Below, one piece after another: positions 775 through 15,612 of a DNA stretch of 64,000 nucleotides. Location of the stretch: the NCBI RefSeq assembly GCF_900156065.1, contig NZ_FTNF01000010.1, forward strand, positions 1 through 64,000. The letters run 5' to 3'. Source of the DNA: Micromonospora avicenniae (GTDB taxonomy: Bacteria; Actinomycetota; Actinomycetes; Mycobacteriales; Micromonosporaceae). Within the stretch, counting starts at the first letter, position 1, and every line of letters starts with the position of its first letter. Position numbers and translations under genes: made by a program. The notes under the pieces were generated by a model. The model made no database searches, was not told the DNA's origin, and worked only from the letters and a program-made list of their open reading frames with translations.

Positions 775-1004
775 GACCGGCAGAACGCCGGCCCAGCCAG
801 GCCGGCGGCAACGACAGCGGTGCCGAAGCCGGCTCCTTCGACGTCGACGCCGGCCGGCCGCGGCGATCCGACGGGCGGGGCGGGATGTCGCCGGGCCGGG
901 CAACGGGTACCGTTGTGGGAAGACTCCGTCGGTCGGTGCCGGCGCGGTCCACCGCGTTCGACCCGTGTCGCCGGGGAGAATGCGGTCGGAGAGGGGGAGG
1001 TGCG

Positions 1005-1460
1005 ATGGTCCTGCTACGCCGAGTGGTCGGTGACGCATTGCGGGCACGCCGGCAGGGGCAGCACCGCACCCTGCGCGAGGTTTCCTCCGCCGCCAACGTC
1101 AGCCTCGGATACCTCTCCGAGATCGAGCGTGGCCAGAAGGAGCCGTCCAGCGAGCTGCTGGCCGCGATCTGCGACGCGCTGGGCGCGCGTTTGTCCGAGC
1201 TGCTGCGCGAGGTGAGCGACACTGTCGCGCTCGCCGAGCAGATGCCGAACGTGCTGGTGCCCGTGCAGGACGAGCCGGCGGGATCCACCCCGGTGCCGTC
1301 GGCTCCGGCGGCCAAGGCCACTGGTCGAGCCGTTCGCCAGGTCAGCTCCGACGGCACGGTCGCCGTCTCGGTACGCCAGGAGTCGCCGCTCAAGGCCACC
1401 CTGCGCAGCACCCGGGTCCGCGCCACCGAGCGTGAGCGCGACGTGGTCTGCGCCGCCTGA
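1005..1460 (+). CDS. clgR: XRE-family transcriptional regulator ClgR
   Basis: A 151-residue protein with an N-terminal Cro/C1-type helix-turn-helix ([20 protein letters not shown], then [18 protein letters not shown]). This matches ClgR, the actinobacterial activator of Clp protease genes and, in mycobacteria, of the psp operon. The ATG at 1005 is preceded by GAGGGGGAGG (991-1000), which favours it over an upstream GTG at 885. The protein ends in Ala-Ala; ClgR homologues are ClpP substrates whose two C-terminal alanines are needed for degradation, so this ending supports the call. The next genes are pspA and a PspM-like gene, as in the mycobacterial clgR-pspA operon. Confidence 0.88.
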
Positions 1461-1654
1461 GTCTCCTTCGCGGCCGTAGCCGCCCGCGCGCGCTCCGCGT
1501 AGGGTTGATCGCAGACGGTGTCGGTCGCCTGCTCGCCGGTACGGGTGCCGGTCTGGTGCCCGGCTGAGACGATGGGGGAGCTGCCGCGCCGGTGGTCCGT
1601 CGTTCCGTCCGGCTCGTGCAGGCGAAGCGACGCTACTGAGGGGATACCGCGGAG

Positions 1655-2518
1655 ATGGCGAACCCGTTCGTCAAGGGGTGGAAGTACCTGATGGCGCTCT
1701 TCGGCGCCCGGATCGACGAGCACGCCGATCCGAAGGTCCAGATCCAGCAGGCGATCGAGGAGGCGCAGCGCCAGCACCAGGCGCTCGTGCAGCAGGCCGC
1801 CGCGGTGATCGGCAACCAGCGCCAGCTGGAGATGAAGCTCTCCCGGCAGATGTCCGAGGTCGAGCGCCTCCAGGCCAACGCCCGCCAGGCGCTCGTCCTC
1901 TCCGATCAGGCCCGCGCCCGGGGCGACGAGGCCGAGGCGGGGCGGTACGAGCAGTCCGCGCAGACGCTGGCCACCCAGCTCGTCTCCGCGGAGCAGTCCG
2001 CCGAGGATTTGAAGACCCTGCACGACCAGGCGCTCGCCGCCGCAGGGCAGGCGCGCCGTGCGGTGGAGAACAACTCGATGATCCTCCAGCAGCGTCTCGC
2101 CGAGCGCACCCGGCTGCTCAGCCAGCTGGAGCAGGCGAAGATGCAGGAGGGTGTGGCCCGCTCGCTGGAGTCGATGTCGGCGCTCACGGCGCCGGGCACC
2201 ACCCCCTCGCTCGACGAGGTCCGCGACCGGATCGAGCGCCGGTACGCCAACGCGATGGGCCGCGCCGAGCTGGCCGGCAACTCGACCGAGGGCCGGATGC
2301 TGGAGATCCAGAAGGCGACTCTCGACTCGGCCGGCTCGGCCCGGCTGGAGCAGATCCGGTCCAGCATGGCCGGTGAGCAGCTCGGTGTGCAGCAGCGGCA
2401 GGGCGGCGAGCAGCCGACGGCTCCGGCGAGCGACCCGGCAGCCGCCGCCCGCCTCGACGAACTCCGCGCGACCATGGCCCGCGAACGCGGCACCGGGGAC
2501 ACCACCGCCGCCGGCTGA
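1655..2518 (+). CDS. pspA: PspA/IM30 family phage shock protein
   Basis: A 287-residue PspA/Vipp1-type protein. The N-terminus ([20 protein letters not shown]) is the amphipathic helix region, followed by a long predicted coiled coil to about residue 170 rich in Gln, Glu, Ala and Arg. A flexible tail rich in Ala, Pro and Gln adds about 60 residues to the core family. PspA oligomerises on the inner face of the membrane to counter envelope damage. It lies 194 bases after clgR and 23 bases before the PspM-like gene. A GAGGGG lies 13 bases upstream of the ATG. Family assignment is firm. Confidence 0.93.
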
Positions 2519-2541
2519 GCGGCCGGCCAGAGGAGGGCAGG

Positions 2542-3312
2542 GTGGCAGACGAGCGTACGCGCTACTTCCGGCGGCTGGCCCGACTTCGCCGGTCGGCAAG
2601 ACGGTGGAGCGTGCTGGCCGGTGGCCTCGGCGGGGCGGCTGCCGTCCTCACCCCGTACGCCGGGCTCGGGCTGCCGGACGCGGCCTGGGCCGGCGCGGCG
2701 GGCAGCGCGGTGGCCCTCGCCGCGTGGCGCTGGATCGACTTGCGGGCTCTCGCCGCCCAGCCGGCGCCTCCGCCGCTCGACCCGGCCGAGGCGGCCGCCC
2801 GATCCGCGGCCCGGCTGGTCGCCGCCGTCGAACGACTGCCGGCCGGATCCGGTGTGGTCGCCGAGGTACGTCGCGTCCGCGCCCGGGTGGCGTTGCGCGG
2901 CACCAGCGCGGCCGAGCCCTGGAGCCGGCTGGACCGGGCGGCGCTCACCCTCTCCGGTATGCGGCAGCGGTTGACCGGACCAGCCGAGCCGGCCCTGCAG
3001 GAGGCCGGCGCCGCCGACCATTCGCTGCGGGAACTCGCCCACCGGGTGGCGAGCGTGGAGCGGGCGCTCCGGCTCGCTCCGGTCGACGCCCGGGCCTCCC
3101 TGGCCGACACGCACCGCGTCCTCACCGGGCAACTGGAGAGCGGGGTGGCCGCGTACGAGCGGCTCGCGGTCGCCGCGGCCGGTTACGTCGCCGAGGATGC
3201 CCGCCCCGATGCTCCGCACCCGGCCGCGGCACGGCTGACCGAGGCGACCGACCTGCTGCACGGCGTCGCCGGCGCGCTAGCCGAACTACGCACCCCCACC
3301 CCCCACCCCTAA
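2542..3312 (+). CDS. PspM-like envelope-stress membrane protein
   Basis: A 256-residue protein with two hydrophobic segments near the N-terminus (about residues 23-45 and 47-63) followed by an Ala/Arg-rich, mostly helical cytosolic domain. It starts at GTG 2542 with AGGAGGG (2531-2537) six bases upstream, directly after pspA. Position and architecture match PspM (Rv2743c) of the mycobacterial clgR-pspA operon, a membrane partner of PspA. The sequence is poorly conserved in this family, so the call rests mainly on synteny and topology. An AraC-like or purely structural alternative is not supported because no other domain is visible. Confidence 0.65.
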   Translation: MADERTRYFRRLARLRRSARRWSVLAGGLGGAAAVLTPYAGLGLPDAAWAGAAGSAVALAAWRWIDLRALAAQPAPPPLDPAEAAARSAARLVAAVERLPAGSGVVAEVRRVRARVALRGTSAAEPWSRLDRAALTLSGMRQRLTGPAEPALQEAGAADHSLRELAHRVASVERALRLAPVDARASLADTHRVLTGQLESGVAAYERLAVAAAGYVAEDARPDAPHPAAARLTEATDLLHGVAGALAELRTPTPHP

Positions 3313-3427: not shown

Positions 3428-6400
3428 TCAGGGTGGGGTGGTGATCGTTGTCGGGGGAGTGAAGGGGGAGCTGCCGACCACGTTGAAGGCGCGGACCCGG
3501 TAGTGGTAGGTGACGCCGCGGGCCAGTCCCGTGTTGGTGAAGCTTCGTCCGGTGACCGTGAACGTGGCGACCTCGCGGCTGAACTCCCGGTCGAGGGCGC
3601 GCTGGACGCTGAACCCGGCACCCGGTCCGGGCGCGGTCCCCGGTGCCCAGCCCAGGACCACCGTCGCCGTGTCGGGCTCCGGCGCGCTGGCGGTGACGCT
3701 CACCGCGTCGGGCGTCGCGGGCGCCGGCGGGGTGGTCACCGTGCCCACCGTCGACCACGGTGAGGCGGTGCCGAGATAGGTCGTCCGCACCCGGTAGTAG
3801 TACGTGGTGTTCGGCGCGACCGCCGGGTCGAGGTGGTTGTCGCCGACCCCGACGGCGGTGGTGGCCGGACCGCTGGTGAAGGTGGGATTGGTGGCCCGCT
3901 GTACGTCGATGCCGGTGGCGAAGGATCGGTTCGACCAGCGCAGCGCGACCCGCAGCGGGGCGGCCGGCGGGATCGCCGCGGTCAGCCCGGCCGGTGCGGT
4001 GAGCTGCACCGAGGCGGGCACGCTGTTGGACCAGGCCGAGCAGCTGACGGCGTTCTCCGCCCGGATCCGGTAGTGGTACGTGACCCCCGGGGTGACCGTG
4101 GCGTCGGTGTACCGGGTGGCGGTGGCCGCCACGGTGATCGTGGTGACCCCGGTGGTGAAGGTCGCGTCGGTCGCCCGTTGTAGCAGGTGGCTGGTGGCCG
4201 GCGGCCGACCGCCGTTGCCGGTCCAGGCCAGCGCGATGGCGGGCAGCGCGGTGGCCGAGCCCGGTGCCGGGGTTGCGGTCAGCCCGGTGGGCGCCTTGGG
4301 CGACACCCGAAGCACGAGCGGGCGGTTCGCGCCCAGGTCGCGGTGGCCGCCGAGCTGGCTGTGCCAGCGGTACTCCCAGCCGAGGTTCACCAGCTGGTTC
4401 ACGACCAGGGCGGGCCGACCGTCGAACGGACTGACCGGGGTCGAGCCGGTCCGGGTGCCGGCCGGCCGGGTCGGGTCGAGCAGCCGGACGCTGTCACCGA
4501 TCTTGAACGGCAAGGTCGGGGCGACCGGGCGCAACGCGACGACGACGTCCTCTCGCGGGTTGACCCGGATGACCTCCTTCCAGCCCAGTTCACCGGCCGC
4601 CGGTGGGCGGATCGTGCCGTCCCAGCCGACCCTGTTGATCACCTGGAGGTCGCAGCCGTCCAGGCGCAGCGTCTCGGTCTGCCGGCTGTTGCCCACGATC
4701 CGCCAGACCTGTGTGCCGTCGGCGGGGGCACCGATGGGCACCGCCGGGTCGGCCGCGAAGAGGATCTCGGTCGCCGGGTCGTCGGGGCCGAGCGGCAGGG
4801 TGGCGGGGGAGAGCGGCCCGGCGTGCGGGTGGGCGACGCCGAGGCGGACGGCGGCTCGGCCGTGCCCGGGCTCGAAGACCTGCTGCACGGCCTTGACCGT
4901 GACCGGCACCGCGACCGGCACGGCACCGCCGGCCGGGGTGAACGTGACGGTCGCGGCGTGCACCGGGACCAGCGTCTCGCGTGACGTCCGGGTACCGATC
5001 GCCTCGTCGTACGCCGGCTGCGGCACGATCGGCGGGCGCTGGCTGGCCGCGTACGCCCGGGGCAGCCGCTCGCGCAGCCGGGCCAGGTCGTACGGTGCCG
5101 CAGGGGCGCCGCGTACGCGGAACTGCAGCAGGGTACGGGTGTTCGGGCCGTACCCGGGGCGGGTGGGGGGCGAGCCGCCCTCGGCGGTGCGGTCGGGCGC
5201 GCCGGTGTGGTGGTCGTAGCGGGGGTCGTAGCCGGGCAGCGGAGCGGGGCAGTCGTTGTAGAGGATCAGCGTGCCGCCCGGAGGCACGGTGGAGAAGTCC
5301 ACCACCACGTCGGCGCGTTCACCGGGAGCGAGCAGCAGCGCGTGTCCGTCGACGTTGAGCACGGTCGGGTCGCGCCGGTCGTACCGGTAGCCGATCGGAC
5401 GGTTGCGGATCACCACCGGCGCGGGCAGCAGGCCACCGTCGTTGCCGATCTGGATCAGCTCCGGGCCGGCCGCGCGCGGGTCGGGCACCCCGCCGTCGCG
5501 TCCGTCGGCCGGCCAGTCCACCGACCGGCCGGGAGCCCGCGCCGCCGGCACCATCGGCACCTCACCCGCGTCGGCGTCGAGCAGGTTTCCCTCGTCGTCC
5601 CACATCGGAGCGTCCGATCCGGCCCGGTAGAGCTGGAGGTTGAGACCCCGGTCCAGGCAGGCGTTGAGGATCCGGAACCGGTACGCCCGCGGCTCCACCT
5701 CCAGGTAGGGGTAAGCGACGCCGTTGACCAGCGGGGTGTCGCCGAACGCTTCGGGAACGGCGCTCGGGTGCGGCACTCCCGGGGTCAGCGGCGGCTCCTC
5801 GGCCGCGGCGACCGGATCGTGGTGCGGGTTCGGCACCGGGCCCGAGCTGCCGTCGCGGTCGGGGTCGCGGTCCCCGTCGGCGGTACGCGACCAGGGCCCG
5901 TAGTCCCAACGGCCGGTCGGATTGATCCCCTCGCGCTGGTACGGATTCTGCCGGGGCTGGTAGACGTGCGGGAACCACAGGCTGCCCCGCGCTCCCCAGC
6001 GGTCCCGGTCCCAGGTCGGATCCTCCTCGGCGAGTTGGGTGTCGTCCGGTACGAACGTCTTGTCCTGGATCACCAGGGGCAGTTCGTCGCCGGGGAGCAC
6101 CCCGTCGACCACGAGTTGCTCCTCCACCGGGTCGGTGAGCAGGTAGAGCGCGATCTGCCCCGAGTAGACGGTCAGCCGGGACAGGCCGAAAGTGTTGTCG
6201 TGGAACCACATGAGCCGCCCGCTCTGCTCGTTCGGGTAGTAGAGCGTGGTGGCACCGGCTCCGGGCGGCGGCATGTCCGGCACGTGGTGCAGGCCGACTC
6301 CGGTCGGGTACGGGGTGATCTCGCCGGCCGGGGTCACCCACTGCAACGGGTTGCCGGCGCTGATCCAGCCGGTCTGCGCGCCCGCGAGGTGCAGCACCGC

Positions 6401-7069
6401 CCGGTTCTGCGGGTACGGCGCCGGGCCGTCCAGCGGGCCGACGCCGGCTCCCTCGACGGTCTCGTCGACCGGCAGGAAGAGTTCGCCGGACCGGCCGGTG
6501 GGCAGCTGGTTGATGAATTTGATCCGCACCGGCCGGCCGCGCCGGGCGCGGATCAGCGGGCCGAGGTGCCAGGGGCGGCCGGGGGGCGCCATCGTGTTGT
6601 GCCCGGACTCGTCGGTGCCGAGGTTGAGCTGCCGGTAGCCCCGCAGGCGGGTGGCGGGCAGGTCGCGGTGGAGCCGCTGGGCGTACTGCTGGAGGCCGAT
6701 CTCGTAGTAGTCGCAGCCCGGGTAGGTGATGGTGTCCGGCACCGCCACCGGCAGGTACCCGCCCAGTTGGGTGCGGCCGAGCGGACCCGGTCCGGGCAAC
6801 GCGTCGACGAACTTGCGCAGGCCGGTCCCGGGCAGCACCTGACCGTCGGCGCCGCAGGTGGGCAGCGGGCTGCGGGCGAAGTTCGGCACCGGACCGAAGT
6901 AGCGCGGAACGGCGGCGGGATCCAGGCTGGCCGGTGCGGCCACGTCCGTCTCGTCGGCGGCCCGAGCCGCCGGAACGGTCGCCGCCTGCCCGCCGTCGGC
7001 GGTGCGGCCGTCGCCGCCTCGCGTCACGCGGTCCGCCCACGTGGTCCGGAGTCTGCGAAACATCGCCAT
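3428..7069 (-). CDS. Multicopper-oxidase-like protein without copper ligands, with three FN3 domains
   Basis: A 1213-residue protein with three cupredoxin-like regions (about 60-915) and three fibronectin type III repeats (about 920-1213, each ending in a T-Y-Y/H-Y-R-V/I-R pattern). The scaffold follows large multicopper oxidases (DLF-PVD-like loop, NR..LHL, WISAGNP.QW, RLTVYSG, LGWKE.IRVNP), but the ligand motifs are changed. The first HxH is HLA (227-229), HDH is HDN (290-292), the HPxHxH position reads TETLRL, and the terminal HCHxxxHE reads HSQLGGHR (from 903). It is therefore unlikely to be an active oxidase. No signal peptide is visible. The start at 7069 has GGGGAG upstream; an alternative is ATG 7168. 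Confidence 0.72.
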   Translation of the reverse strand: MAMFRRLRTTWADRVTRGGDGRTADGGQAATVPAARAADETDVAAPASLDPAAVPRYFGPVPNFARSPLPTCGADGQVLPGTGLRKFVDALPGPGPLGRTQLGGYLPVAVPDTITYPGCDYYEIGLQQYAQRLHRDLPATRLRGYRQLNLGTDESGHNTMAPPGRPWHLGPLIRARRGRPVRIKFINQLPTGRSGELFLPVDETVEGAGVGPLDGPAPYPQNRAVLHLAGAQTGWISAGNPLQWVTPAGEITPYPTGVGLHHVPDMPPPGAGATTLYYPNEQSGRLMWFHDNTFGLSRLTVYSGQIALYLLTDPVEEQLVVDGVLPGDELPLVIQDKTFVPDDTQLAEEDPTWDRDRWGARGSLWFPHVYQPRQNPYQREGINPTGRWDYGPWSRTADGDRDPDRDGSSGPVPNPHHDPVAAAEEPPLTPGVPHPSAVPEAFGDTPLVNGVAYPYLEVEPRAYRFRILNACLDRGLNLQLYRAGSDAPMWDDEGNLLDADAGEVPMVPAARAPGRSVDWPADGRDGGVPDPRAAGPELIQIGNDGGLLPAPVVIRNRPIGYRYDRRDPTVLNVDGHALLLAPGERADVVVDFSTVPPGGTLILYNDCPAPLPGYDPRYDHHTGAPDRTAEGGSPPTRPGYGPNTRTLLQFRVRGAPAAPYDLARLRERLPRAYAASQRPPIVPQPAYDEAIGTRTSRETLVPVHAATVTFTPAGGAVPVAVPVTVKAVQQVFEPGHGRAAVRLGVAHPHAGPLSPATLPLGPDDPATEILFAADPAVPIGAPADGTQVWRIVGNSRQTETLRLDGCDLQVINRVGWDGTIRPPAAGELGWKEVIRVNPREDVVVALRPVAPTLPFKIGDSVRLLDPTRPAGTRTGSTPVSPFDGRPALVVNQLVNLGWEYRWHSQLGGHRDLGANRPLVLRVSPKAPTGLTATPAPGSATALPAIALAWTGNGGRPPATSHLLQRATDATFTTGVTTITVAATATRYTDATVTPGVTYHYRIRAENAVSCSAWSNSVPASVQLTAPAGLTAAIPPAAPLRVALRWSNRSFATGIDVQRATNPTFTSGPATTAVGVGDNHLDPAVAPNTTYYYRVRTTYLGTASPWSTVGTVTTPPAPATPDAVSVTASAPEPDTATVVLGWAPGTAPGPGAGFSVQRALDREFSREVATFTVTGRSFTNTGLARGVTYHYRVRAFNVVGSSPFTPPTTITTPP

Positions 7070-7189
7070 GGCTCTCCCCGGGCTCGGGGCACGACCGTCG
7101 CCACCCCGGCGTGGCGGATCCGGTCGGGCCGGCTCTGCTGACGTCTGGTGAACGCCCAATCGCAGCATGCGACGTCGGGGTCCGGTTAG

Positions 7190-7218
7190 GAATTACCCAA
7201 TCGTCCCAATCTGGGCAA
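7190..7218 (-). promoter_or_regulatory. Candidate promoter of the oxidase-like gene
   Basis: On the reverse strand TTGCCC (7218-7213) and TAATTC (7195-7190) are separated by 17 bases and read toward the oxidase-like gene. The spacer contains direct repeats of ATTGGG. The motif is a reasonable -35/-10 pair, but it was found by eye only. Confidence 0.4.
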
Positions 7219-7330
7219 CTGGTGGTGCGGCTTCGGCCGGATGTTCCGCTGCCGGCTCTGCCGGGCGGACGGGCAGGTCAGGGACACGTCGGGCGGTCGC
7301 GCCCAGGCCGTCGGCGCTACGGCCGGCCGG

Positions 7331-8209
7331 TCAACGGGCCGGGTCTGGCTGGCAGACCGGGCACCAGTAGGTGACCCGCTCGCCCAACTCCTCCTTGCGA
7401 ATCGCCGTGCCGCACCGGCGGCACGGCTGGGCTCGTCGGCCGTACGCGTAGGTGGTCTGCCCGCGGTGCAGCGAGCCGGTGCTGCTCTGCGTCCAGCGCC
7501 CCCGGTTGGCGGCGAGCAGCCGCTGCGCGAGGGCCACCAGGCCGGGCAGGTCGGGCACCGCGCGTACGGGCGTACGCGGCGAGACACCGCGCAGGAAGAG
7601 CAGCTCGCACTTGTAGAGGTTGCCCACCCCGGCCAGGTTGCGTTGGTCGAGCAGGGCCTCGCCGACGGGGGTGTCCGGGTGGGCGGCCAGCCGTCGTACC
7701 GCCTCGGCCGGATCCCAGTCCGAACCGAGCAGGTCCGGGCCGAGGTGGCCGACCAGGCGCTCCTCCTCTGCGGTGGGCACCAGCGCCAACTCGTGCAGGT
7801 GGTAGCCGACGGCCACGGCGTCCGCGCTGCGCAGCACCACCCGGATCAGGTGGCCCGGGCGCGCGGCCCAGCGTTCTCCCGGCGCGTACGCCCGCCACGC
7901 GCCGTCCATCCGCAGGTGCGAGTGAAGCGTCCAGCGTGTTCCGGGAGCCGCCCCGCCGTCCGTCGGGGTGCCCGGTACGCCGGTTTTCGTGCCGGTGGGC
8001 CGGCCCGCCGGGGTGGCGTCACCGCCCGTCGGCGCGTCGAGGCGGAGCAGTAGGTGCTTGCCGCGGGCGACCGACTCGCGCACGGTCCACCCGGCCAGGT
8101 CGGTTGTGGCGAGCTGCGGCACCCGGAACTCGCTCGCCGTCAGTACCGCGCCGGCCAATGCCCGGTGCAGGACGCGGGCGGTGTTCCAGACGGTGTCGCC
8201 TTCGGGCAT
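7331..8209 (-). CDS. nei2: Fpg/Nei-family DNA glycosylase (endonuclease VIII, Nei2 type)
   Basis: A 292-residue enzyme starting MPEGDTVWNTARVLHRAL. Proline 2 is the Schiff-base nucleophile and Glu3 the conserved catalytic acid of the Fpg/Nei family. Further landmarks are the GKHLLL region, LHSHLRMDG, the helix-two-turn-helix around LLDQRNLAGVGNLYKCELLF, and a C-terminal zinc finger with CRRC and CPVC pairs. PEGDT rather than PELPE points to the Nei branch found in actinobacteria. It removes oxidised bases and cleaves the abasic site. It is transcribed toward the oxidase-like gene with a 261-base gap, so it is probably a separate unit. About 15 residues between the GKHLLLRLD and WTLHSHLRM segments look like a lineage-specific insertion. 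Confidence 0.93.
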   Translation of the reverse strand: MPEGDTVWNTARVLHRALAGAVLTASEFRVPQLATTDLAGWTVRESVARGKHLLLRLDAPTGGDATPAGRPTGTKTGVPGTPTDGGAAPGTRWTLHSHLRMDGAWRAYAPGERWAARPGHLIRVVLRSADAVAVGYHLHELALVPTAEEERLVGHLGPDLLGSDWDPAEAVRRLAAHPDTPVGEALLDQRNLAGVGNLYKCELLFLRGVSPRTPVRAVPDLPGLVALAQRLLAANRGRWTQSSTGSLHRGQTTYAYGRRAQPCRRCGTAIRKEELGERVTYWCPVCQPDPAR

Positions 8210-8319
8210 CCTGCCATTCTCCCTCGGCCGAGCCGGATTCGCATGTATCGCTATTTGTACCGTGCTTACGCTTGATCTCCTGACATGGGCACCATCAGGG
8301 AGTTCTGGGGAGTTTGCCC

Positions 8320-8466
8320 ATGAAACATGCTCATCGTCACCTTCGACCCGTTCTCGTCGCCGGTCCGTTCGGCACCACCAACCGGTGGGACCGCCTCGCC
8401 ACCGGCCAGTACGTCAGCCACGCGTACATCTCCGCCGTCTACGGCGGCACCGTGCCGCGCTGCTGA
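8320..8466 (+). pseudogene. Orphan SH3-domain C-terminal fragment
   Basis: A 48-codon frame contains GTTNRWDRLATGQYVSHAYI and ends in VPRC before the stop. The pattern W-D-x-L-x-x-G-x-Y-V-S-x-A-Y-I, ending close to a terminal cysteine, resembles the last part of bacterial SH3 domains in secreted actinobacterial cell-wall hydrolases. No signal peptide, catalytic domain or upstream SH3 half is present and an in-frame stop lies at 8281, so this looks like the 3' relic of a larger gene. The remaining bases of the 8210-8572 gap show no other coding signal. A functional small ORF cannot be excluded. Confidence 0.42.
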
Positions 8467-8572
8467 CCACTGCTCCGGGCCGGGACCGTGTGCCCCGGCT
8501 CGGCCGGCGCCCTCGACGGTGCCGGCGCGAGCCGTCGCAGGAAGTCCGCGCCGGCCGACGCCGGAGCCGCCG

Positions 8573-9409
8573 TCAACCGCTGATCCGGACGAGGTCACCC
8601 GGGCGTACGCCCAGCCGGTCGACCGCCCGCCCGCCGTTGACCGACACCGCCACCCGGTCGGCCGAGTCGGGATGCACCACCAGTTCACCCGGGCGGGCGT
8701 CGCCGAACGTCCGCCCGCGCACCGCCGTACGCCCCGGCGCGCCGTCCCCGACCGGCTCCGGTGCCGGCAGCGGCGCGTTGGCCGGCGCGGTCACCCGCAC
8801 CATCGCCGGGAGCTGCTCCAGAAGCTCGGCCGTGGCGGCGAGCTGCACGTTGCCGAAGTGATCCACGGTCAACACCTCAGCGGTGAAGCCGGCGGGATCC
8901 GCCGCCACGATCGGCTCGGGCAGCCGGACCAGCTCCGCCGGATCGATCGCGGGCCCGGCCTCAACCAGCGGCGCGCCGAGCGCCAGCCGGGCCGCGACCG
9001 GTGCGAAGACGTCCCGACCGTGGAACGTGCCGGACACCCGTCGAGCCAGCCAGGCCGGGTTGGTCAGCTCGATGGCGCCGGTGACCCCGCCCAGCGCCTC
9101 GGCGGCGTCGGGCAGCAGCCCGTTGTCCGGTCCGACCAGCAGCCCGTCCGGGGTGGCCAGGGCGACGCCTCGACGCGCGGTGCCGACCCCCGGGTCGACC
9201 ACCGCCACGTGCACCCCGACCGGAAGGTACGCAACGGTCTGGGCGAGTACGGCCGCACCGTGGCGTACGTCGGCGGGTGGAACCAGGTGGGTCACGTCGA
9301 TCACCCGGGCGGCCGGGGCGATCCGGGCGATCACCCCGTGGCAGGCGGCCACGAAGCCGTCGGAGAGGCCGTAGTCGGTGGTCAGGGAGATCCAGGGCGT
9401 GGCGGGCAT
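8573..9409 (-). CDS. SAM hydroxide adenosyltransferase (SAM hydrolase, DUF62)
   Basis: A 278-residue member of the SAM-dependent halogenase/hydroxide adenosyltransferase family. It begins with ISLTTDYGLSDGFVAACHGV, and also shows the VVDPGVGT, GPDNGLL and FHGRDVFAPVAA motifs and the C-terminal VDHFGNVQL region. Family members cleave S-adenosylmethionine to adenosine and methionine with water; a few marine actinomycete members use halide. No biosynthetic cluster for a halogenated product is nearby, so hydrolase is the better guess. It lies 10 bases downstream of a GNAT gene on the same strand and is probably co-transcribed with it. Confidence 0.9.
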   Translation of the reverse strand: MPATPWISLTTDYGLSDGFVAACHGVIARIAPAARVIDVTHLVPPADVRHGAAVLAQTVAYLPVGVHVAVVDPGVGTARRGVALATPDGLLVGPDNGLLPDAAEALGGVTGAIELTNPAWLARRVSGTFHGRDVFAPVAARLALGAPLVEAGPAIDPAELVRLPEPIVAADPAGFTAEVLTVDHFGNVQLAATAELLEQLPAMVRVTAPANAPLPAPEPVGDGAPGRTAVRGRTFGDARPGELVVHPDSADRVAVSVNGGRAVDRLGVRPGDLVRISG

Positions 9410-9419
9410 GGCTCGCAGG

Positions 9420-9971
9420 CTAACCGTCGCCCCGGGTCCGCGCCCCGGGTTGTGCCGGACCCCGCCGCTCCGGCCGGCCCCCGGCGGCGGTACGCAGCTC
9501 CAGGGTCAGCTCGTCGTGCAGCGGGATGCCGTCCTCCCCGACGAACGGGATCTCCGGCTTCAGGCGGCGCGCTCGGTCCACCGCCCCCGGGTCGAACCCG
9601 ACCAGGCGCAGGCCGCGCCGCTGGTAGAAACGGAGCGCCCGGAGGTTGTCGTTCGTGGTGATCAGCCAGAGCCGGTGCAGGCCCGCGGCCCGCGCCGTCG
9701 ACGCGGCCGCCTCCAGCAGGGTGGTGCCGGCCCCTCCGCCGGGTACGGCGGCCACCAGGCTCACCACCTCCAGTCCCTCGGCGTCGCAGTTGTAGGCGAG
9801 CGCACCGACCACGGCGGCGGCGCCGTCCACGGCCACCAGCGTCGGCAGGGTACGCAGGTCGTACCGGATGTCGTGGGCGATGACGTACGGGCCTCCCCAC
9901 TCCCGGTCGTGCAGCGCGTCTACTTCCGCCCGGTCGCCCGGCTTCGCCGCCCGTACCATGATCCCGCCCAT
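9420..9971 (-). CDS. GNAT-family N-acetyltransferase
   Basis: A 183-residue acetyltransferase. It has an N-terminal VRAAKPGDRAEVDALHDREW segment, the core strand LEVVSLVAAVPGGGAGTTLL with the acetyl-CoA pyrophosphate-binding G-G-G-A-G-T loop, and the C-terminal NDNLRALRFYQRRGLRLVGF typical of GNAT proteins. The substrate cannot be read from the sequence. ATG 9971 is chosen because GAGGAGGGG lies just upstream on the coding strand; an in-frame ATG at 9959 is the alternative. It is the first gene of a two-gene unit with the SAM hydrolase. Confidence 0.85.
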   Translation of the reverse strand: MGGIMVRAAKPGDRAEVDALHDREWGGPYVIAHDIRYDLRTLPTLVAVDGAAAVVGALAYNCDAEGLEVVSLVAAVPGGGAGTTLLEAAASTARAAGLHRLWLITTNDNLRALRFYQRRGLRLVGFDPGAVDRARRLKPEIPFVGEDGIPLHDELTLELRTAAGGRPERRGPAQPGARTRGDG

Positions 9972-9999
9972 GCCGCCCCTCCTCGTCGGCCCGCTGCCC

Positions 10000-10053
10000 G
10001 CGTCGGCCCGTCGGCCCGCGTTGGTCCGTCGGCACGCGTTGGTCCGTCGGCCC
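10000..10053. repeat. 18-bp imperfect tandem repeat, three copies
   Basis: Three consecutive 18-base units (10000-10017, 10018-10035, 10036-10053) follow the pattern GCGTYGGYCCGTCGGCMC, followed by two truncated 10-base copies. They lie upstream of the GNAT gene, in the spacer between it and the divergent lipoprotein gene. They may be simple replication slippage or protein-binding sites. Confidence 0.7.
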
Positions 10054-10238
10054 GCGCCGGCCCGCGTCGGCTCGCGTCGGTCGGCGAGGGTAGCCGGGCG
10101 GCGCGGAGACGGCGCGCGAGTTTCGCGGTCGCGAGCCGCCGCGGCGGCGCACTGAGCGGTGCCTCTGCCGGATATGGGACAGGGCCTCTGGCCGACCGGC
10201 CACTGCCGTCGCCCGACCCGGTTCGGGAGACTGCCCTG

Positions 10239-10832
10239 GTGACACATCGGAGCCTGCCCGCGGTCGCGGTGCTCGTCGTGGCTGTCGCACTCACCGCCGG
10301 ATGCGGCGACGGGAACCGGCCGACGAACGCTGCCGTAGCGTCCAGCACCCCGACCACCAGCCCGTCCCCGGTGGTCCCGCCGCCCGTCGCCGGTGCGCCC
10401 GTCGCCGGGCCCAGCTCCGGTCCGGCGGCTCCGGTGGTTCCACCGGCCGGCGACGCCCCGGCCGTGCAGGAACCCACCGAGCGCCGCCCGGCCAGCCCAC
10501 CACCGGTGGTGCTGCCGCGCCGCCCGGCGGGTGCTCCCGGCGCGAAGCAGGTGGTCGACGCGTTCCGGGCCGCCGGTCTGAAGGTGCCCAACCCCCGTGA
10601 CCTCTCGGTCGACTGTGGACCTGACGGACTCGGGCTGGGCTGCTCGGAGATCATCGCCACGGATGCCGTGACCGTGTACGTCTTCCCGGACGAGACCAGC
10701 GCGAGCGACATCGCCGAGATCTGGAGCGGACAGTCGTACCGCCGGGGCGCAGTGGTGCTCAACTACCTGGCGGCACGTACTCCGGCCGCCGACCGGCTCC
10801 GCTACGAGAAGGTGCTCGCCGGCCTGGGCTGA
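10239..10832 (+). CDS. Putative secreted lipoprotein
   Basis: A 197-residue protein with a short N-terminus, a hydrophobic stretch (AVAVLVVAVAL) and a lipobox LTAGC, with the modified cysteine at residue 22. A Pro/Ser/Thr/Val-rich linker of about 80 residues leads to a compact C-terminal domain (about 105-197) containing two cysteines (VDCGPDGLGLGC) and an alpha/beta pattern. GTG 10239 has GGGAGA upstream. The linker and lipid anchor suggest an extracytoplasmic domain held off the membrane. The C-terminal domain was not recognised; function unknown. Confidence 0.78.
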   Translation: MTHRSLPAVAVLVVAVALTAGCGDGNRPTNAAVASSTPTTSPSPVVPPPVAGAPVAGPSSGPAAPVVPPAGDAPAVQEPTERRPASPPPVVLPRRPAGAPGAKQVVDAFRAAGLKVPNPRDLSVDCGPDGLGLGCSEIIATDAVTVYVFPDETSASDIAEIWSGQSYRRGAVVLNYLAARTPAADRLRYEKVLAGLG

Positions 10833-10911
10833 GCGGCCTCGCCGTGCGCCGGCGCACGTCCGCGCGGCAGGTCCCCCGCCATCGGCCGACGTCGACGACC
10901 GCGCCCCGCGC

Positions 10912-15612
<4,701 letters not shown>

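Follow-up and report, generated by a model that had tools for sequence, protein, structure and literature searches.

Catalytic multicopper oxidases (MCOs) hold their coppers with ten histidines and one cysteine in four motifs, and they carry acidic residues for oxygen reduction. In CotA laccase, the replacement of Glu498 by threonine or leucine causes severe impairment, and both D116 and E498 bear on oxygen reduction (PMC2944330). Homologues without copper ligands are already known, from a few scattered cases. SufI (FtsP) of E. coli keeps two of twelve ligands, its crystal contains no metal and a role as a scaffold of the septal ring has been proposed (PMC2661564). The insect protein MCORP is MCO-like and oxidase-dead, yet essential, and was found to be membrane-bound (PMC4203857), and the plant protein SKU5 lacks the ligands of types 1 and 3 (PMC10315306). 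Large MCOs with FN3 modules have been described as the OmpB type (Geobacter, and MofA of Leptothrix; PMC5566968).

Here we analyse an MCO homologue in a window of 64,000 nucleotides from Micromonospora avicenniae. A search of open-access papers on copper-less MCOs of Micromonospora yielded nothing relevant. We find that the protein has the fold of CotA without most of its copper ligands, that it belongs to a single clade of such proteins, and that it is almost certainly a selected pseudoenzyme and not an oxidase.

Results

Gene and protein layout

The copper-less homologue is encoded on the minus strand (3431..7069, stop codon at 3428-3430) and comprises 1213 residues. Its frame is open from 7168 to 3428 and a further ATG is present upstream at 7168. 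Judging from the sequence, the ATG at 7069 is most likely the start of the gene; GGGGAG sits just 5' of it, and the MxxFRRLR start lines up in 49 of 51 orthologues. Residues 1-47 (6929..7069, minus strand) consist of an N-terminal box, MxxFRRLRxxW/F, followed by a fast-evolving Pro/Ala linker. Residues 48-925 (4295..6928, minus strand) form a CotA-like core of three cupredoxin domains, and residues 926-1213 (3431..4294, minus strand) form a tail with FN3 modules, where Pfam recognizes two stretches and there is space for three. Pfam detects only these C-terminal modules and no MCO domain above its cut-off, which is expected because the diagnostic ligands are missing. Neither a signal peptide nor any hydrophobic stretch was found in the window protein, in line with what the first-pass annotation had claimed of the signal peptide. 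The N-terminal box is kept in nearly all orthologues and resembles a short targeting or docking motif. We considered an amphipathic membrane-anchor helix at the N-terminus and rejected it, as the hydrophobic moment is not above that of shuffled sequences (p 0.3-0.9). The EXXE motif, which binds iron in OmpB, occurs once in the window protein and once or twice in its relatives, a count that tells nothing about function.

The best solved relatives by sequence are CotA laccases (E ~1e-35). The predicted core (residues 48-940) reaches a pTM of 0.82 and matches CotA-type laccases with Z 25-27.6 over ~470 residues and SufI with Z 24.9 over 411 residues. The protein is thus predicted to have cupredoxin domains homologous to those of laccases; the structure prediction gave the CotA fold and the alignment to CotA is collinear, so that the MCO scaffold is kept from end to end, as had been proposed. 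At the four former copper sites, model confidence is low for the window protein and likewise for a canonical control. We do not take this as evidence of disorder because the control, which had a similar alignment, is poor there as well.

Loss of the copper ligands

The four motifs were read by alignment to CotA and 11 canonical relatives, and each of them is affected (all coordinates on the minus strand). Former site 1 reads HLA (residues 227-229, 6383..6391) where canonical proteins have HLH, and former site 2 reads HDN (residues 290-292, 6194..6202) in place of HDH, with asparagine in 50 of the 51 proteins of the copper-less clade described below. Former site 3, canonically HxxHxH, is ETLRLD (residues 799-804, 4658..4675); the first-pass annotation had described all four alterations, and only its reading of this site, TETLRL, is shifted by one residue. 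Former site 4 is HSQLGGHR (residues 903-910, 4340..4363) instead of HCHxxxHE, with cysteine replaced by serine in 49/51 and glutamate by arginine in 51/51. The claim that the copper ligands are lost holds for seven of the 11; it is too strong for all of them, since H227, H290, H903 and H909 stay. The type-1 cysteine is gone in all 51 proteins and is serine in the window protein, where the axial methionine has become Ala914.

Both catalytic acids of CotA are replaced in the window protein and throughout the clade. The equivalent of D116 is A238 (6356..6358), a position with aspartate in 11/11 canonical proteins and alanine in 51/51, and the equivalent of E498 is R910, glutamate in 11/11 canonical proteins. 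One could suppose that the protein still works as a copper oxidase and that its intact motifs lie at other places, and four ligands do remain; however, the alignment with CotA and the 11 fully liganded relatives is collinear from end to end, there is no HCH motif, and the type-1 cysteine and both acids are gone, which makes this reading hardly credible. Since ligands and second-shell acids are missing, the window protein very probably binds no copper and has no oxidase activity left. As four histidines persist, two of which (H227 and H290) hardly vary in the clade, some binding of metal would be possible.

Of the 208 core columns that are invariant in canonical proteins, 147 are kept in at least 90% of the copper-less clade, whereas among the 11 ligand columns no more than 2 are (Fisher p = 3e-4). 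Ligand loss against a kept core is thus not due to chance.

Relatives and order of loss

We scanned 84,980 species genomes, and the best 80 of 103 hits gave at least 73 loci, so that the counts are lower bounds. Orthologues were sampled by peptide patterns from the window protein, and other genera of the Micromonosporaceae may hold further copper-less or canonical relatives. Among these best 80 hits, Micromonospora, Salinispora and Verrucosispora contribute 51 aligned proteins including that of the window, each with 2-6 of 11 ligands; copper-less members thus exist beyond the window, as the first-pass annotation had suggested looking for. The type-1 cysteine separates these 51, all of which lack it, from the other aligned proteins, all of which have it.

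All 11 ligands are found in each of the 11 distant relatives listed, which come from Coriobacteriia and other actinobacteria, Armatimonadetes, a deltaproteobacterium, Geobacteraceae, Clostridium and methanogenic archaea. The large MCOs of methanogens, Clostridium and Geobacteraceae (L067, L068, L070, L072, L073 and L074) are fully liganded and mostly signal-bearing, and two of them, L070 and L074, have a confirmed FN3 tail; by sequence they are oxidase-type enzymes, yet they occur in anaerobes. One Armatimonadetes contig (L071) carries two large-MCO relatives in tandem (5001-8789 and 9392-13696).

Trees were built with the ligand columns removed. The 51 copper-less proteins form one clade, of single origin, that is sister to the Plantactinospora group (SH-aLRT 100); a smaller, more careful tree recovers the same clade and sister position (bootstrap/SH-aLRT 100/100). 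The Plantactinospora group (L043, L044, L045 and L047) represents the same syntenic gene, with 62-63% core identity and likewise without a signal peptide. Unlike the window protein, its members retain 8-10 of 11 ligands, including the type-1 cysteine. They have lost T3 ligands and kept the type-1 cysteine, the second histidine and the methionine, while the first type-1 histidine is found only in L045 and L047. From these sequences, it is possible that they are single-copper electron-transfer proteins.

Both forms occur in Micromonospora sp. NBS 11-29, which encodes a copper-less orthologue at 77% identity (L077) and, separately, a fully liganded copy (L060, also L078-L079). This copy has all four canonical motifs and no signal peptide, and it is the first branch within the Micromonosporaceae (group 100/100; its own place 94/96). 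Its frame is broken once, at about 7085, between the second and third domains, which may be an assembly fault. A signal-like hydrophobic stretch is present in 8 of the 10 distant relatives checked and in none of the Micromonosporaceae members checked. Because L060 and the Plantactinospora proteins are already signal-less, the signal was lost before the ligands on the tree. Among the ligands, the T3 ligand of HCH went first (HCQ in Plantactinospora) and the type-1 cysteine later. Read from the aligned motifs, ligand loss within the Micromonosporaceae is stepwise.

Conservation and selection

Micromonospora and its relatives preserve the copper-less protein in over 50 species. Searching with a 101-residue query over 20 relatives, we found the gene in 13/13 genomes sampled from the same genus, one of the matches (G006) being a contig-end fragment, and a single weak match in eight other families of the order. 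By the Nei-Gojobori method, which is rough on GC-rich DNA, the median dN/dS over 687 close pairs amounts to 0.30 (core), 0.25 (FN3 tail) and 0.75 (N-terminal linker). The values for the core are mostly 0.17-0.35 and those for neighbouring genes 0.18-0.27, with the third domain (0.34) somewhat less constrained than the neighbours. Core and FN3 tail are thus well below one and within or slightly above the range of neighbouring genes.

The lost ligand columns themselves are variable: entropy is 1.3-1.8 bits in 7 of the 11 ligand columns, several times the core median of 0.28. Their flanks, in turn, are conserved above the core mean, and near the dead sites the clade carries new residues that are fixed or nearly so (N292, S904, R910 and A238). 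With ligand columns excluded, 10 of 20 newly fixed residues lie within 12 residues of a dead ligand, compared to 27 among the 206 remaining conserved columns (p = 2e-4). Freed ligands within a rebuilt and conserved surround would be the expected look of a repurposed site.

The variable ligand columns, together with frameshifts in L042 and L063 (both on draft contigs), could be read as a decaying pseudogene whose copper sites eroded once the gene no longer mattered. We consider this very improbable, as frames of ~1200 codons are intact in nearly all species, the core is under purifying selection, every genome sampled in the genus has the gene and replacements have been fixed next to the dead sites. 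The first-pass annotation had likewise argued for a selected pseudoenzyme over decay, and intact frames, purifying selection and clade-wide conservation bear it out.

Gene neighbourhood

Convergent to the MCO homologue lies the Psp envelope-stress operon (885..3312, plus strand) with clgR (885-1460), pspA (1655-2518) and pspM (2542-3312), and upstream on the same strand lies nei2 of the endonuclease VIII family (7331..8209, minus strand). The order cinA-clgR-pspA-pspM, the convergent MCO homologue and nei2 is conserved from Micromonospora to Plantactinospora. In Salinispora (L032, L037 and L049), unlike Micromonospora, ~2 kb separate nei2 and the MCO gene. The synteny may be plain conservation of gene order among near relatives, and in a large survey of Psp partners copper proteins go unmentioned (PMC11237479). 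A functional link to the ClgR-PspA-PspM system is a lead of low probability.

Discussion

The window protein descends from a secreted, fully liganded large MCO that lost its signal and then its ligands, and we propose that the fold was kept for a second function; we give this reading as a whole a probability of roughly 0.6. The signal peptide was lost in the ancestor of the Micromonosporaceae members, and the protein would therefore have stayed in the cytosol. A trinuclear (T3) ligand was then lost at the Plantactinospora stage, followed by the type-1 cysteine and both acids that serve oxygen reduction. What preserved the fold would be a second function, either already present or acquired later, which is now probably a non-enzymatic job inside the cell.

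What this job is can be narrowed only tentatively. A role in binding and not in catalysis, as a cytoplasmic scaffold that uses the surface of its cupredoxin domains together with the rebuilt active site and the FN3 tail, is somewhat short of an even bet, and we favour it because SufI/FtsP, as proposed at the septal ring, offers an analogy.

FN3 modules are usually extracellular, which fits a cytosolic location badly, and non-classical export of the protein is possible. The protein might, without being a catalyst, bind a ligand or mediate adhesion at the cell surface, having left the cell by an unconventional route and with the FN3 tail as adhesion module. The tail is under purifying selection, the conserved box before the fast linker could be a targeting signal, and the FN3 part of OmpB is thought to mediate attachment to Fe(III) oxides (PMC5566968); however, there is no signal peptide and the box has no significant amphipathicity, so that we regard this reading as unlikely.

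Alternatively, the remodelled site could bind another metal or cofactor and catalyse new chemistry, its partial ligands being H227, H290 and N292 among others. Such a catalyst could draw on the constancy of H227 (51/51), H290 (50/51) and N292, on the fixed replacements near the site and on the precedent of LPR1, cited as an MCO without type 1 that is still a ferroxidase (PMC10315306). Yet positions 802, 804, 903 and 905 vary in the clade and the constant set comprises only H227, H290 and N292, which leaves a different catalyst quite unlikely.

Returning to descent with a second function, a more far-reaching version would be a genus-wide, cytoplasmic, FN3-bearing and copper-free MCO whose former active site has been rebuilt as a conserved binding or catalytic site (H227, H290, N292, S904 and R910), with the intermediates and the fully liganded paralogue recording the steps, and which possibly serves the ClgR-PspA-PspM response. 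We consider this version doubtful.

One lineage displays the path from a secreted 11-ligand protein over a signal-less 11-ligand paralogue and intermediates with 8-10 ligands to a fixed pseudoenzyme with 2-6 ligands, which selection keeps in all members sampled from a genus that produces antibiotics. This makes it a tractable system for how an enzyme becomes a non-enzyme. It also means that annotating the proteins of the copper-less clade as multicopper oxidases would mislead.

Comparison with known systems

The closest solved structures are the CotA laccase and CotA-type bilirubin oxidases of Bacillus (PDB 1gsk, 7z5p and 9bd5), which share the three-cupredoxin fold. CotA likewise lacks a signal peptide. 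It binds four coppers, whereas in the window protein 7 of the 11 ligands are gone, as are both second-shell acids, and large insertions and the FN3 tail come on top of the CotA layout. SufI/FtsP (PDB 2uxt and 2uxv) resembles the window protein in having an MCO fold without copper ligands. However, it is a Tat-exported, periplasmic division protein of ~450 residues, without FN3 modules and from another MCO branch; the window protein has no Tat signal peptide and scores 45 bits against the FtsP equivalog NF008135 (cut-off 581).

The layout of the OmpB/MofA type was compared through L074 of Geobacteraceae, a full-length relative with that layout and 37-43% identity. Members of the OmpB type are secreted, to the outer surface, and have been described as multicopper proteins, whereas the window protein has neither a signal peptide nor a hydrophobic stretch. 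MCORP and SKU5/SKS also lack copper ligands, but these are proteins of eukaryotes with a different origin, and the cell wall is where SKU5 acts. Compared to these known copper-less MCOs, what appears new here is a predicted cytoplasmic location, the presence of FN3 modules, the layout of a large FN3-tailed MCO and the existence of living intermediates.
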